From: an uncultured Methylococcaceae bacterium | GTDB lineage: Bacteria > Pseudomonadota > Gammaproteobacteria > Methylococcales > Methylomonadaceae | Reading direction: 5' to 3' | Length of the DNA: 33,382 nt | NCBI GenBank assembly: GCA_903859415.1 | Contig: CAIOMN010000246.1 | Location: 1 to 33,382 of the forward strand | Shown here: in pieces, positions 29,902-33,382 of the stretch | Layout of the letters: each line of letters begins with the position of its first letter | Numbering within the stretch: the stretch's first letter is position 1 | Program-made: the position numbers and the translations under genes | Notes under the pieces: model-generated | The model's input: only the letters and a program-made list of their open reading frames with translations | Database searches by the model: none | Told to the model about the DNA's origin: nothing

Positions 29902-30552
29902 CTATCCTACTATTAGAATTTCTTTGATAGCTTCTTTTACAGTATTTGAGACATCGCTGCTTAACGATTTGTTTTTTAATGCGAGCTTAAGATCGGTGGC
30001 TTTTTCTGAGTCTTCTTCGCGCAGTAAATAATTTTCAAGGGTTCCCAAGGCTGTGAAACAAACGGCTTCAGACTCATCTTCTAAGGCATTAAGGAGTGCA
30101 TCGAGGGTTGGTTCTTTAGGTTTATAAATGATACCCAAGCTACGTGCAGCGGCATTGCGCACACCGGAGTCCTGATCCGTTGTCAGCAATTGAGTCAGTA
30201 ATGTTTCGGAAGCCTGGTTTGGATAGGCGCCTAAATATTGGATGGCGGCTACCCGTTCGTCCTTTTGTGGGCTGTTAATGAGGTCAAGAGCCTTAGTATA
30301 CAGTGCTGCGTTTTCTTGTATTTCAGCGTCTACCATTCCCTGAGTTGTCATAGTGTTGTTATCGTTTTCGGTTGGCAAAGCCGAAAAGACTTTAAAAGCA
30401 GGAGTAATCGTTTGTTGCTGCTGATGACTCTGTGTTTGAGTCACTTTAGTCGTCTGTAAAACGGGAAGTTCTATCGTTCTATTTATCAGAATGATACTGG
30501 TAATAGCTGTAACTAGAAATAACGCAGCAAGCAATTTTTTGGAAATAATCAT
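29902..30552 (-). CDS. HEAT-repeat protein with N-terminal membrane anchor
   Basis: A 216-residue protein with an N-terminal hydrophobic segment (about 6-23, KLLAALFLVTAITSIILI), a Gln/Thr-rich linker (about 35-60) and then three to four HEAT/PBS-lyase-like helical repeats (about 95-200), e.g. ERVAAIQYLGAYPNQASETL, SGVRNAAARSLGIIYKPKEP and EAVCFTALGTLENYLLREED. Such repeats mediate protein-protein contacts in the periplasm or at the membrane. No partner is evident. It lies 75 bases downstream of the nucleotidyltransferase gene on the same strand and could be co-transcribed with that cluster. Confidence 0.8.
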   Translation of the reverse strand: MIISKKLLAALFLVTAITSIILINRTIELPVLQTTKVTQTQSHQQQQTITPAFKVFSALPTENDNNTMTTQGMVDAEIQENAALYTKALDLINSPQKDERVAAIQYLGAYPNQASETLLTQLLTTDQDSGVRNAAARSLGIIYKPKEPTLDALLNALEDESEAVCFTALGTLENYLLREEDSEKATDLKLALKNKSLSSDVSNTVKEAIKEILIVG

Positions 30553-30627: not shown

Positions 30628-31821
30628 TCAGTATGACCAGCCTTTTAATACCGCTCTAATCTTAGTCGGAAAATATCCCGGATTAGTAATAGCCATATAA
30701 AATAAATAAGGCAGACGTCTCGGTAAATGACTCAGCCACTCCAAACAAGTGAACAGTCGACGCCAATCCGGTTGTATCGCAGCCTTTTCAAGCAACCAGA
30801 GTTGTAGTGCTTCATGTGGCGAACGGGGTAGATTATCCGGATAGGTTGTTTTAAACCAGTGCTCTGCTTGTGCCCAGTATTCGGCAAGAATAGCCCGGCG
30901 CTTTGGACGTAGTCTGTTAAGCAGATGGGAGATGTCTAACGAGGTCGCTTCGTGCTGGCTTATCGCAGCAAATTCCAGAAGTTGACGAAGATCAAGCACA
31001 CGCTTAAACCGTTGTCTGTCACTTATTTGGCAATGCAGCATATTATGCAACAATCGGGTGGACACATCAGGAATAAGAGCAATGGGACCTGCGTTAAAGC
31101 TAAAAGACATAGTCATTAGTTGTTGGCGCAGCAGAGCATCATCGCCTTGATGTACCTGAATACGGCGGTGTAGTTCAATTTTGACCGGTAAACTAGGATG
31201 CAACAAGGGAGAGCCGTGATGAGATTGTCGACCGAGACGGTGACAGCGATGGCGACGATAACTTGGCAGTATCCATGGGAATATCAGTAGGAAGCTTTTA
31301 TTAGGCACTTGATAGCCCAAAGAGGTAACCGCCGATGTGGCAGCCTCCATGCATTGATCAGGCACCAGTAGATCAAGATCGCCTATGATTCGATCCTCTG
31401 CACCCGGATATTGCCCTGAGGTCAGGGCAATCGCCCCTTTCAATAACACCGGTTGAATACCGATGCGGTTAAGGGCCTCGGTGATAATGATCAGTTGTTC
31501 TCTCAATGTTTGATTCCGTTCACGGTTGAGGCTTTGTAGGGTGTGTAAATAGCCTTGCACCTCATCGGGCAGCAGGTCAAACAAACCCTTGCGTTGCAGG
31601 GCACCAGCCAGTGAAGGCGTTACCAAACAAGAACCGGCCAACCAGCACAGTCCATGCCAATCCACCGTCTCAGCAGCAAGCCGTTCCGGTAAATCGATCG
31701 CGTAAGTGTCACCTACGGCCAGACATTCGCATAACAAGGATAAATTTGCCGCACGCCGCTGGTTCGATATTGAGCGAGTATGCCAGAACTGACGAATACC
31801 TGACAGAGTAGTAAGACTCAT
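30628..31821 (-). CDS. nucleotidyltransferase family protein (NTP_transf_5-like)
   Basis: A 397-residue protein with a central nucleotidyltransferase fold: VLLKGAIAL (125-133), then RIIGDLDLLVP (144-154) with the metal-binding D148 and D150, and LPVKIELHRRI further on supplying a third acidic residue. This is the pattern of the uncharacterised NTP_transf_5 family, found with PqqD and HPr-kinase-like genes and in some lasso-peptide clusters, where such enzymes may nucleotidylate a peptide or a glycan. Flanking regions are helical. It overlaps the upstream kinase gene by four bases (ATGA). Substrate unknown. Confidence 0.85.
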   Translation of the reverse strand: MSLTTLSGIRQFWHTRSISNQRRAANLSLLCECLAVGDTYAIDLPERLAAETVDWHGLCWLAGSCLVTPSLAGALQRKGLFDLLPDEVQGYLHTLQSLNRERNQTLREQLIIITEALNRIGIQPVLLKGAIALTSGQYPGAEDRIIGDLDLLVPDQCMEAATSAVTSLGYQVPNKSFLLIFPWILPSYRRHRCHRLGRQSHHGSPLLHPSLPVKIELHRRIQVHQGDDALLRQQLMTMSFSFNAGPIALIPDVSTRLLHNMLHCQISDRQRFKRVLDLRQLLEFAAISQHEATSLDISHLLNRLRPKRRAILAEYWAQAEHWFKTTYPDNLPRSPHEALQLWLLEKAAIQPDWRRLFTCLEWLSHLPRRLPYLFYMAITNPGYFPTKIRAVLKGWSY

Positions 31822-32987
31822 AATAGAGTTTCCGTTGATGATAGATGATCGACCTGTTGCTGAACTAAGGCCAGCGCACTGTCAAGATCAGGATAATTTA
31901 AAGCATAAGCAGGAACTGAGCTAACCCAGTTTGCCAGGGCGTCGAGCTTGGCTTGTGTCAGGTTACGAATAACCGCCTCGGCCTCAATGATGTATTGAAA
32001 GGCTTCTTCTGGACTCAGTGCTTTGCAGTGCGGCACACTGCCCGGCTGATAACAGGGAAATAACAGCAACCCCAAGGGAATAGAGCCACTATTACTGTTA
32101 CCCAGCGGTGGCAAATAGCGCACGGTCTGACCATAACGAACAAGACATTCTGTACTGCCTAGATCAGGCCGATAAGGCGTGACTATCGGCCAACTCCCGC
32201 TCTTAAGACAAATAGGGGTGCGAAGCCCTAACAGCTTGCCCGTCATAGTGACGGGCACCACATCATCACTCAATAGACCATAGCCTTGGGCATTAAGCGC
32301 GGTCGCCAAGGTCGTTTTACCCGACCCTCCGGGTGCAATCAGCAATAGCCCGCGGTCATCAGTCAATCTAAGACCCGCGCCATGAATCACTAACAGACGC
32401 TCTTCTGCCTGACAAGCCAGATCAATCAGGGTATGCAGCACATTGGTCAGTGCATTTTCAAGCCCCTGACCCGTTGCTTCAGGTTGCTCATTAATACTAA
32501 GCACCCACTGAATAGCATTACCCGTTAACACAAGGTGATGCGCCAAGCGCTCAGTGTCTATAACCAGCACCGAACTTAACAAAATAGTAAGTCGCTGGGT
32601 CAGTTGCGCATCCTCAACAAACAAACCAAAACACAGATCGGCCAACTTGACTGTTATCGTCATTGACCGAACTGTATCAGGAAACGCTGGCACGACAACC
32701 CAATCACGCACTTTTGCAAAGGACGTCTCGGGTTGCTCAAGACTGGCTTTTACCAAGCCGTTTTGCTGCCAGTGTAAAAGCAGAGCCTCGACGTGGCTGC
32801 TGGCGACTTCTTTAGACAGGCCATAATCAACTATCAGCTTTTGTATTAAAGGCCGCACGTCAACCTCATCATCACTAACTTGATACAGTTGCCACAACTC
32901 AGATGCACTGGCATTAAGCAGATGCACGCTGCCACCCCCCTGCTGAGCCAGTACTAAACCGATACCAAGTTTTGCCTGTAAGATCAT
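31818..32987 (-). CDS. PqqD-like domain fused to an HPr-kinase-like domain
   Basis: A 389-residue fusion. The N-terminal 85 residues, with VHLLNASASELWQLY (21-35) and a winged-helix pattern, match PqqD, the peptide-recognition (RRE) domain of RiPP pathways. The C-terminal half is an HPr kinase/phosphorylase-type ATPase: Walker A PGGSGKTT (219-226) and the acidic SDDVVPV (240-246), without the HPr-recognising C-terminal region. In paeninodin-type lasso-peptide pathways related kinases phosphorylate the peptide. The fusion suggests it recognises a leader peptide and modifies it. A 67-residue candidate substrate is encoded 22 bases upstream, the NTase gene overlaps the 3' end. Local G+C is visibly higher than in the heat-shock genes. 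Confidence 0.85.
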   Translation of the reverse strand: MILQAKLGIGLVLAQQGGGSVHLLNASASELWQLYQVSDDEVDVRPLIQKLIVDYGLSKEVASSHVEALLLHWQQNGLVKASLEQPETSFAKVRDWVVVPAFPDTVRSMTITVKLADLCFGLFVEDAQLTQRLTILLSSVLVIDTERLAHHLVLTGNAIQWVLSINEQPEATGQGLENALTNVLHTLIDLACQAEERLLVIHGAGLRLTDDRGLLLIAPGGSGKTTLATALNAQGYGLLSDDVVPVTMTGKLLGLRTPICLKSGSWPIVTPYRPDLGSTECLVRYGQTVRYLPPLGNSNSGSIPLGLLLFPCYQPGSVPHCKALSPEEAFQYIIEAEAVIRNLTQAKLDALANWVSSVPAYALNYPDLDSALALVQQQVDHLSSTETLL

Positions 32988-33009
32988 CTCACGTTTTATA
33001 AGTCCTTAT

Positions 33010-33213
33010 TTAAAAACCAGTAGGCGGACCTGATAGAGAGTCTGCTGAGGATGCTGAGGATGCTGAGGCACGCTTTGATAGCATCAACGTTAACATCACT
33101 GGCGGCGTCCAAAGTGCCAGTTTAGAGATATCACGGCGCTCCTTATCAATTACTTCAGGGCTTTCTTGGTTTGTGGTTGATTCAGTATTGGCTGTGGTAG
33201 GTTCAGTTTTCAT
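33010..33213 (-). CDS. 67-residue precursor-like peptide
   Basis: A small protein with a polar Thr/Glu-rich N-terminus (1-26), a twin-arginine-like ERRDISK (25-31), a hydrophobic stretch LALWTPPVMLTLML (32-45), KRASA (47-51), then a Ser/Ala-rich tail SSASSADSLSGPPTGF. The pattern W-x-P-P-V followed by hydrophobic residues and an Ala-x-Ala end recalls short peptides encoded next to PqqD, HPr-kinase and nucleotidyltransferase genes. The leader-plus-tail layout and position 22 bases before the PqqD-kinase fusion make it the likely substrate. The tail is encoded partly by a 9-bp tandem repeat. The Ala-x-Ala could instead be a signal-peptidase site of an exported protein. Confidence 0.7.
   Translation of the reverse strand: MKTEPTTANTESTTNQESPEVIDKERRDISKLALWTPPVMLTLMLSKRASASSASSADSLSGPPTGF
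33045..33068 (-). repeat. 9-bp in-frame tandem repeat in the precursor-like gene
   Basis: CTGAGGATG occurs at 33045-33053 and 33054-33062 and a partial third copy (CTGAGG) at 33063-33068. It encodes the repeated Ser-Ser-Ala of the C-terminal tail and is a slippage site that can change tail length by whole codons. Confidence 0.75.
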
Positions 33214-33262: not shown

Positions 33263-33382
33263 TTAATGGGCTAAAACCGTCCAGACATAGCTTTGAGCAG
33301 GTGCATTGAGCGTCACTGGATAGCCTTTAGCGGTCCAGGCAGGATCGGTAGGATTAATAACTTTGCCGGTGGCTACCTCAAG
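33263..33382 (-). CDS. C-terminal end of a protein cut by the window edge
   Basis: A 39-codon open frame enters from the right edge and stops at TAA 33263. The visible end, with PTDPAWTAKGYPVTLNAPAQ and SYVWTVLAH, looks like the last strands of a C-terminal beta-sandwich domain such as those closing glycoside hydrolases (APAQSYVWTV), but there is too little to assign a family. It lies 49 bases upstream of the precursor-like gene on the same strand. Confidence 0.5.
   Translation of the reverse strand, partial: LEVATGKVINPTDPAWTAKGYPVTLNAPAQSYVWTVLAH

Follow-up and report, generated by a model that had tools for sequence, protein, structure and literature searches.

A candidate peptide-tailoring operon joins a twin-arginine-like leader peptide to a PqqD–HPr-kinase fusion and a nucleotidyltransferase in an uncultured Methylococcaceae bacterium

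The HPr-rel-A system of NCBIfam (TIGR04352, TIGR04353) consists of a PqqD-type chaperone and an HprK-related kinase, and a similar set of parts was encountered at one end of a contig from an uncultured Methylococcaceae bacterium. The window analysed in this work is that complete contig (G000:C246, 33382 bases; G and L numbers denote genomes and loci), and the locus, on its minus strand, encodes a 67-residue substrate or precursor peptide (33010–33213), a 389-aa fusion of a PqqD domain to an HPr-type kinase (31818–32987) and a 397-aa NTP_transf_5 nucleotidyltransferase (30628–31821). The first-pass annotation had drawn these genes head to tail with a gap of 22 bases between peptide and kinase and an overlap of 4 bases between kinase and nucleotidyltransferase; a check of the open reading frames (ORFs) recovered them with the same coordinates and spacing, and the higher G+C content that it had noted was also borne out (0.488 for the trio vs 0.404 for bases 1–30627 of the contig). 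A three-gene operon is well supported. With the scales close to level, our preferred reading is a peptide-tailoring operon in which residues 26–51 of the peptide would have two roles, leader for the fused PqqD domain and export signal of the twin-arginine type, the tail being modified before export.

Judged by its sequence, the locus is a distant fused variant of the HPr-rel-A system. Both models match in part but below their cut-offs, TIGR04352 (HprK_rel_A) with 81.2 bits at residues 192–376 of the fusion (cut-off 200) and TIGR04353 (PqqD_rel_X) with 23.3 bits (cut-off 35). Here, however, PqqD domain and kinase are fused, and the substrate is a minimal 67-residue peptide. The distinct route proposed by the first-pass annotation stands in so far as a precursor-like peptide is combined with a kinase carrying a RiPP recognition element (RRE; RiPP, ribosomally synthesized and post-translationally modified peptide) and a nucleotidyltransferase, with no lasso protease or cyclase in sight, but not as an isolated locus. 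No paper on the substrate of the HPr-rel-A system was found in the open literature, as covered by titles and the starts of abstracts, with subscription papers mostly outside this coverage.

Signal peptides of the twin-arginine translocation (Tat) pathway have dedicated chaperones, for example TorD and DmsD. The present peptide resembles such signals in its RR motif, hydrophobic stretch and basic residue before an AxA end, and a dedicated binding protein that holds export until maturation would parallel those chaperones, although the proposed chaperone is here an RRE fused to a kinase and the window peptide gives no Tat profile match. Phosphorylated lasso peptides (paeninodin, pseudomycoidin, BsfA/BsfK/BsfB1) share with the locus an HprK-type peptide kinase, a nucleotidyltransferase, an RRE and a YxxP leader; they differ from it in that no B2 protease or cyclase is seen here, the leader is of an RR...AxA kind and the tails of several members are very short. 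The DUF2063/DUF2282 RRE systems (PMC12710340) likewise have RRE-linked precursors with an export signal, but theirs is Sec-dependent and shows no specific RRE motif, whereas a Tat-like leader, a YxxP-type motif and a kinase are present here. The word ‘kinase’ is absent from the main text of the RRE surveys searched.

Recurrence and selection indicate that the peptide is a real gene. A peptide profile matched in 13 of 311 genomes of the order (E ≤0.01), the weakest matches being doubtful, and close relatives beside kinase relatives have the common pattern RR...[WY]TPPxMxxLxxSxRASAxS. The peptide lies 21–22 bases upstream of the kinase in G117 and G129, and 8 bases upstream in G008 if the kinase start is L038:1453 as aligned; the genome of the window carries the entire arrangement a second time, on contig C68, where the peptide is divergent and ends in SVRADQGGSF. 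From the RR onward, dN and dS are 0.315 and 2.07 between the window peptide and that of G008, where dS is close to saturated, and 0.155 and 0.531 between G129a and G123, the latter pair giving 0.567 and 0.556 before the RR. Because dN is well below dS from the RR on and near equal to it before the RR, the N-terminal stretch appears to drift while the rest is held, and on these estimates the peptide from RR onward is under purifying selection. A chance ORF is ruled out by recurrence in relatives together with selection. Ten distant records of relatives are plasmid-borne. The second peptide copy in G129 carries three synonymous and no other changes from RR on; it is intact (L127:9069-9664), the ORF search finds only kinase fragments beside it, and it may be served in trans. 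A further peptide, in G156 (L129:2503-2721), has a WTPPAMLMLMRSKRASA segment behind a quite different N-terminus without RR, and is either a chimeric gene or an assembly artefact.

The conserved leader signature, defined by alignments and a residue check, spans residues 26–51 (33061–33138, minus strand). It consists of the twin arginines R26 and R27, followed by DIS rather than xFL, a hydrophobic stretch (LALWTPPVMLTLML) with W35-TPP-VMLTLML, a basic KR and A49-S-A51. The RR is invariant across 15 aligned substrates and is followed in most by AxA-like ends. We read this conserved central part of the peptide as a leader of twin-arginine-like character in which a YxxP-type motif is embedded. In lasso leaders, Tyr(-17), Pro(-14) and Leu(-12) serve RRE binding, according to the BsfK study (PMC10368454). 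The corresponding segment of the window peptide is W35-T-P-P38-V-M, with Trp for Tyr and Met for Leu, and W35 to A51 make 17 residues with the cleavage site assumed. A motif table was compiled by hand for 40 related substrates with the AxA placed by eye. Long tails are cut in it to about 9–15 letters, one row (G123) adjoins a kinase fragment only, and some substrates are absent, namely those of the sphingomonads and of the 300-residue kinases, in which the AxA is less easily located, and also, for example, L113 and L133. Within this table [YWF]xxP occurs in 32 of 40 substrates, 14–19 residues before the end of the AxA (16–17 in 25 of the 32). Among four Tat-profile proteins of the window's genome, too few for a firm control and judged by eye, one has [YWF]xxP and one has a Ser within four residues of the AxA.

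The tail past the AxA, residues 52–67 (SSASSADSLSGPPTGF; 33013–33060, minus strand), is the candidate mature peptide, and S52/S53 are the phospho-acceptors predicted in view of the Ser count in relatives. A Ser lies no more than four residues past the AxA in 33 of the 40 substrates, where about a quarter would be expected from the Ser frequency further down the tails; the associated p-value is not to be taken at face value because the rows are related and the AxA was set by eye. Tails shrink to 1–7 residues in some relatives, and to 1–3 residues in G178, G027 and G541. In G178, six small peptides in tandem have near-equal leaders and the tails GS, RPS, RPS, GAGSAID, TSAFG and TSLTC; their genes (L131:8602-9970) follow those for a PqqD-HprK fusion and a putative protein of the NTP_transf_5 type. 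Elsewhere, a 115-aa leader peptide (L133:7501-7848) has a C-terminus of the IPVLSVWSLG... type, which we take to recall IPTL-CTERM sorting tails.

Both enzymes look competent, their catalytic residues being intact in the alignments. The PqqD/RRE domain of the fusion (residues 11–79; 32751–32957, minus strand) scores 32.2 bits with PF05402 (cut-off 23.4), and in a PDB profile search this part matched the lasso B1 proteins TbiB1 (5v1u, the top match) and TfuB1. The HprK-type kinase domain (residues 192–376; 31860–32414, minus strand) was delimited from the partial TIGR04352 match, alignments and Foldseek, and scores 15.8 bits with PF07475 (Hpr_kinase_C), below the cut-off of 33.3. Its H202, K224, T225, D241 and D242 are the counterparts of the His, P-loop Lys-Ser/Thr and Asp-Asp of the lasso kinase BsfK, in which the equivalent catalytic positions have been shown to matter (PMC10368454); the residue six before the P-loop Lys is Ala in the window kinase and Gly in BsfK. 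Across 18 aligned kinase rows H202, G221, G223, K224, T226, L227 and D241 are invariant, and of 12 further kinases found beside leader peptides in the class-wide search, 11 retain the His, GK[ST] and D[DE]. The AlphaFold model of the fusion has a mean pLDDT of 79.5, and its best Foldseek matches are PEPCK (E 1.4e-7) and HprK (3tqf, E 1.8e-4), with low TM-scores of about 0.2–0.4 on the query. The nucleotidyltransferase scores 97.9 bits with PF14907 (NTP_transf_5; cut-off 31.2), and its LKG (127–129) and GDLD (147–150) conform to the LKG and GDxD kept in 8 aligned rows, in which K128, G129, G147, D148 and D150 are invariant.

In a midpoint-rooted kinase tree of 55 rows, in which long branches meet, the window kinase groups with those of G008, G129, G117 and G156, and six Firmicute kinases form one separate clade, for which a lasso cluster was checked at L108 only. 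Five of 60 kinases were left out of the tree as having no P-loop by the search pattern (L122, L174, L177, L178, L179); a later alignment found GKS present in L177–L179 and absent in L174. The L174 locus (L174:2714-4785) encodes a PqqD-kinase-like protein of 610 aa that lacks the catalytic His, P-loop Lys and Asp pair, beside a YTPPAMLSLMLADKAAAQS leader peptide.

A substrate link between peptide and kinase is well supported. In line with the check proposed by the first-pass annotation, small ORFs of the WxPPV...AxA type recur beside PqqD–HPr-kinase fusions: a profile-detected leader is present at 10 of 12 distinct strong kinases (300–450 aa, kinase HMM ≥150, a set that leaves out L048 with 731 aa and L041, which is cut), a figure that measures co-occurrence and not independent detection because most of those peptides fed the profile. 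The leader lies upstream at nine of the ten, and downstream, in tandem, at L131. At the remaining two kinases, a leader-like ORF was found downstream by a looser pattern alone (L047), and no leader was seen where the kinase starts 398 bases from the contig end (L042).

Across a wider set of HprK-type kinase loci, a search of the 1.6 kb upstream, limited to the strand of the kinase, found a Tat-like leader ORF in 39 of the 69 testable loci whose kinase score was at least 60, against 2 of 20 lower-scoring loci and 34 of 244 control windows; the one-sided Fisher p of 4e-12 (39/69 vs 34/244) exaggerates the contrast, since many of the loci, the sphingomonads above all, are closely related. The pattern used was chosen after seeing the data, replacing an earlier one that was not specific enough (107 near, 133 far). 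Loci whose kinase score did not exceed 40 (L055/L128, L069 and L115 included) and L057, part of L130, were dropped, and loci identical over the final 60 residues were counted once (L044 with L043) to leave 91 loci, two of them (L016, L072) too short to test; many had upstream stretches shorter than 1.6 kb. The 20 low-scoring loci take in the Firmicute kinases as well as L127, L132 and L136; their two matches are L124, not a leader, and L127, a real peptide beside kinase fragments, and the pattern missed a real peptide at L132. Many sphingomonad loci have as upstream ORF a protein with a RRALMLGAASASAIVSIRPALAQT-type start, and two Planctomycetota loci a cystine-rich peptide. The planctomycete leader peptides with cystine-rich tails lie at L119:5391-6061 and L109:3273-3542; the L109 peptide and one from L119, the two that were scanned, gave weak matches to knottin-like Pfam models that stay under the cut-off.

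At class level, a profile from the wider leader alignment matched 30 of 369 genomes, that of the window included. The best places in the 29 other genomes have a kinase relative close by in 11 (L139–L144, L146, L147, L150, L152, L158), and G411 has one at another place (L184). Thirteen of the 29 are other things, among which L154, L156, L157, L160, L165, L166 and L167 presumably are ordinary Tat substrates. The profile thus drifts into Tat substrates, which is evidence for a Tat-like leader. It also matched an RR-leader protein with many GGGWFNR/GGGWHNR repeats (L164:1408-2028), around which no kinase was seen in roughly 1.5 kb on each side.

In the tailoring operon that we propose, the PqqD domain would first bind the WTPPVM stretch within the hydrophobic part of the leader, and binding would bring the Ser just past the AxA (S52/S53) to the HprK-type kinase for phosphorylation. 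The NTP_transf_5 protein might then put a nucleotidyl or sugar group onto the Ser phosphate, after which Tat export and cleavage at RASA by signal peptidase would release a short modified tail. The absence of a dedicated protease or transporter from the locus would follow, because Tat and signal peptidase would do the export and trimming, and TatC is present in the window's genome (231.5 bits). Precedents exist for the two modifications: the HprK-like BsfK phosphorylates the core Ser3, boosted by its RRE partner (PMC10368454), and hexoses are reported to be added to the phosphate of pseudomycoidin.

Several observations weigh against this reading. The window peptide matches neither TIGR01409 nor any Pfam Tat family at E ≤10, a search in which the HMMER filters drop most weak matches, and L048 alone among 10 substrates passes the TIGR01409 cut-off. 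Seven of the 40 tabulated substrates have no Ser within four residues past the AxA, both G541 tails have no Ser at all, and the tail at the second locus of the window's genome is only DQGGSF. BsfA phosphorylation was unaffected by the single changes Y(-17)A or L(-12)A (PMC10368454), and in the AlphaFold model of the fusion it is the PqqD domain that is modelled poorly. The kinase-like domain of L174 has lost the His, GK[ST] and Asp-Asp yet adjoins a leader matching that of the window, L039 has no nucleotidyltransferase next door, and five small leader ORFs from the class-wide search (L168, L169, L170, L172, L173) have no kinase in the stretch examined. The upstream leader pattern is itself noisy: 14% of controls match, three of the 39 positive loci (L094, L107, L119) are by eye not leaders, the control matches being uninspected, and the window peptide fails the pattern.

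Some of these points would suit a RiPP-like pathway, in which RR...AxA is a leader only and not a Tat signal: PqqD would bind, the kinase and nucleotidyltransferase would modify the tail, perhaps at its end, and an unlinked protease and transporter would complete maturation. The missing Tat profile match and the prolines within the hydrophobic stretch are in keeping with this, as are the lasso-like spacing of the YxxP-type motif and the lasso B1 protein as closest PDB relative of the PqqD part. We nevertheless regard it as rather unlikely, since the RR is invariant in the aligned substrates with AxA-like ends in most, the leader profile recovers Tat-like substrates, and tails of 1–3 residues leave little core.

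A less probable reading still, which we consider distinctly unlikely, is that the target of the two enzymes is not the peptide but, for instance, the large protein encoded upstream or a glycan, with the peptide as regulator or chaperone tag. An upstream gene runs off the contig, and its last 39 codons and stop are visible at 33263–33382 on the minus strand. This fragment is identical at 21 of 37 residues to an L038 protein (406 aa, itself cut) and is also related to a 1085-aa L039 protein with FG-GAP repeats. At L038 and L039, and as the fragment in the window, the peptide is preceded by a large protein that is of the FG-GAP type or related to it, and at L127 a 1146-aa ORF with a like C-terminus occupies the corresponding place. 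However, the upstream gene differs at the second locus of the window's genome and in G117, G281 and G178, and the leader peptide is retained in all of them.

A lasso-peptide cluster whose protease and cyclase genes sit off the contig, either past its end or at another place in the genome, can be almost wholly discounted, even though the contig stops 169 bases past the peptide gene, which leaves a gap, and a real lasso cluster (L108) holds the same tailoring enzyme types (NTP_transf_5 and a kinase, with Asn_synthase, Transglut_core3, an ABC transporter and a WxxPVV precursor): it is rejected mainly because the 280 contigs of the window's genome gave a single B2 protease (Transglut_core3) match, of 21.6 bits and under the cut-off of 26, and further because the selected flanking genes of relatives that were scanned include no Asn_synthase or Transglut_core3, because the tails are short, and because the six Firmicute kinases, L108 shown to be lasso, form a separate clade.

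Downstream of the nucleotidyltransferase, a HEAT-repeat protein with an N-terminal hydrophobic segment (29902–30552, minus strand; from the Pfam scan of the window and relatives) is a probable operon member, so that transcription would run from the cut upstream gene through peptide, kinase fusion and nucleotidyltransferase to the HEAT-repeat protein. A HEAT-repeat gene also follows the nucleotidyltransferase in G008 (HEAT_2 match), and a counterpart in G028 was judged from a similar start only. At the second locus of the window's genome and in G012 (L044:2660-4263, L043:482-2715), a Tat-like protein of 442–462 residues precedes the peptide, with a thioredoxin-family protein, scanned in G012, still further upstream. 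In G129 (L039:11238-13421), a subtilase-family gene on the other strand comes directly after the kinase, and no NTP_transf_5 gene follows.

A bolder reading, which we hold to be less likely than not, is that the locus belongs to a widespread modify-before-export checkpoint, in which RRE domains would read Tat signals directly and a Ser at the mature N-terminus would be phosphorylated and capped, gating or marking Tat export. Such a checkpoint was not found in the open literature, within the coverage given above. The 67-residue peptide would then be a minimal substrate, the same machinery dealing in other loci with entire proteins and with cystine-rich peptides. The tailoring operon proposed here would link RRE-guided peptide modification with Tat export, fields that are usually separate, and it provides the HprK-related kinase A family with candidate substrates whose predicted site can be put to the test.

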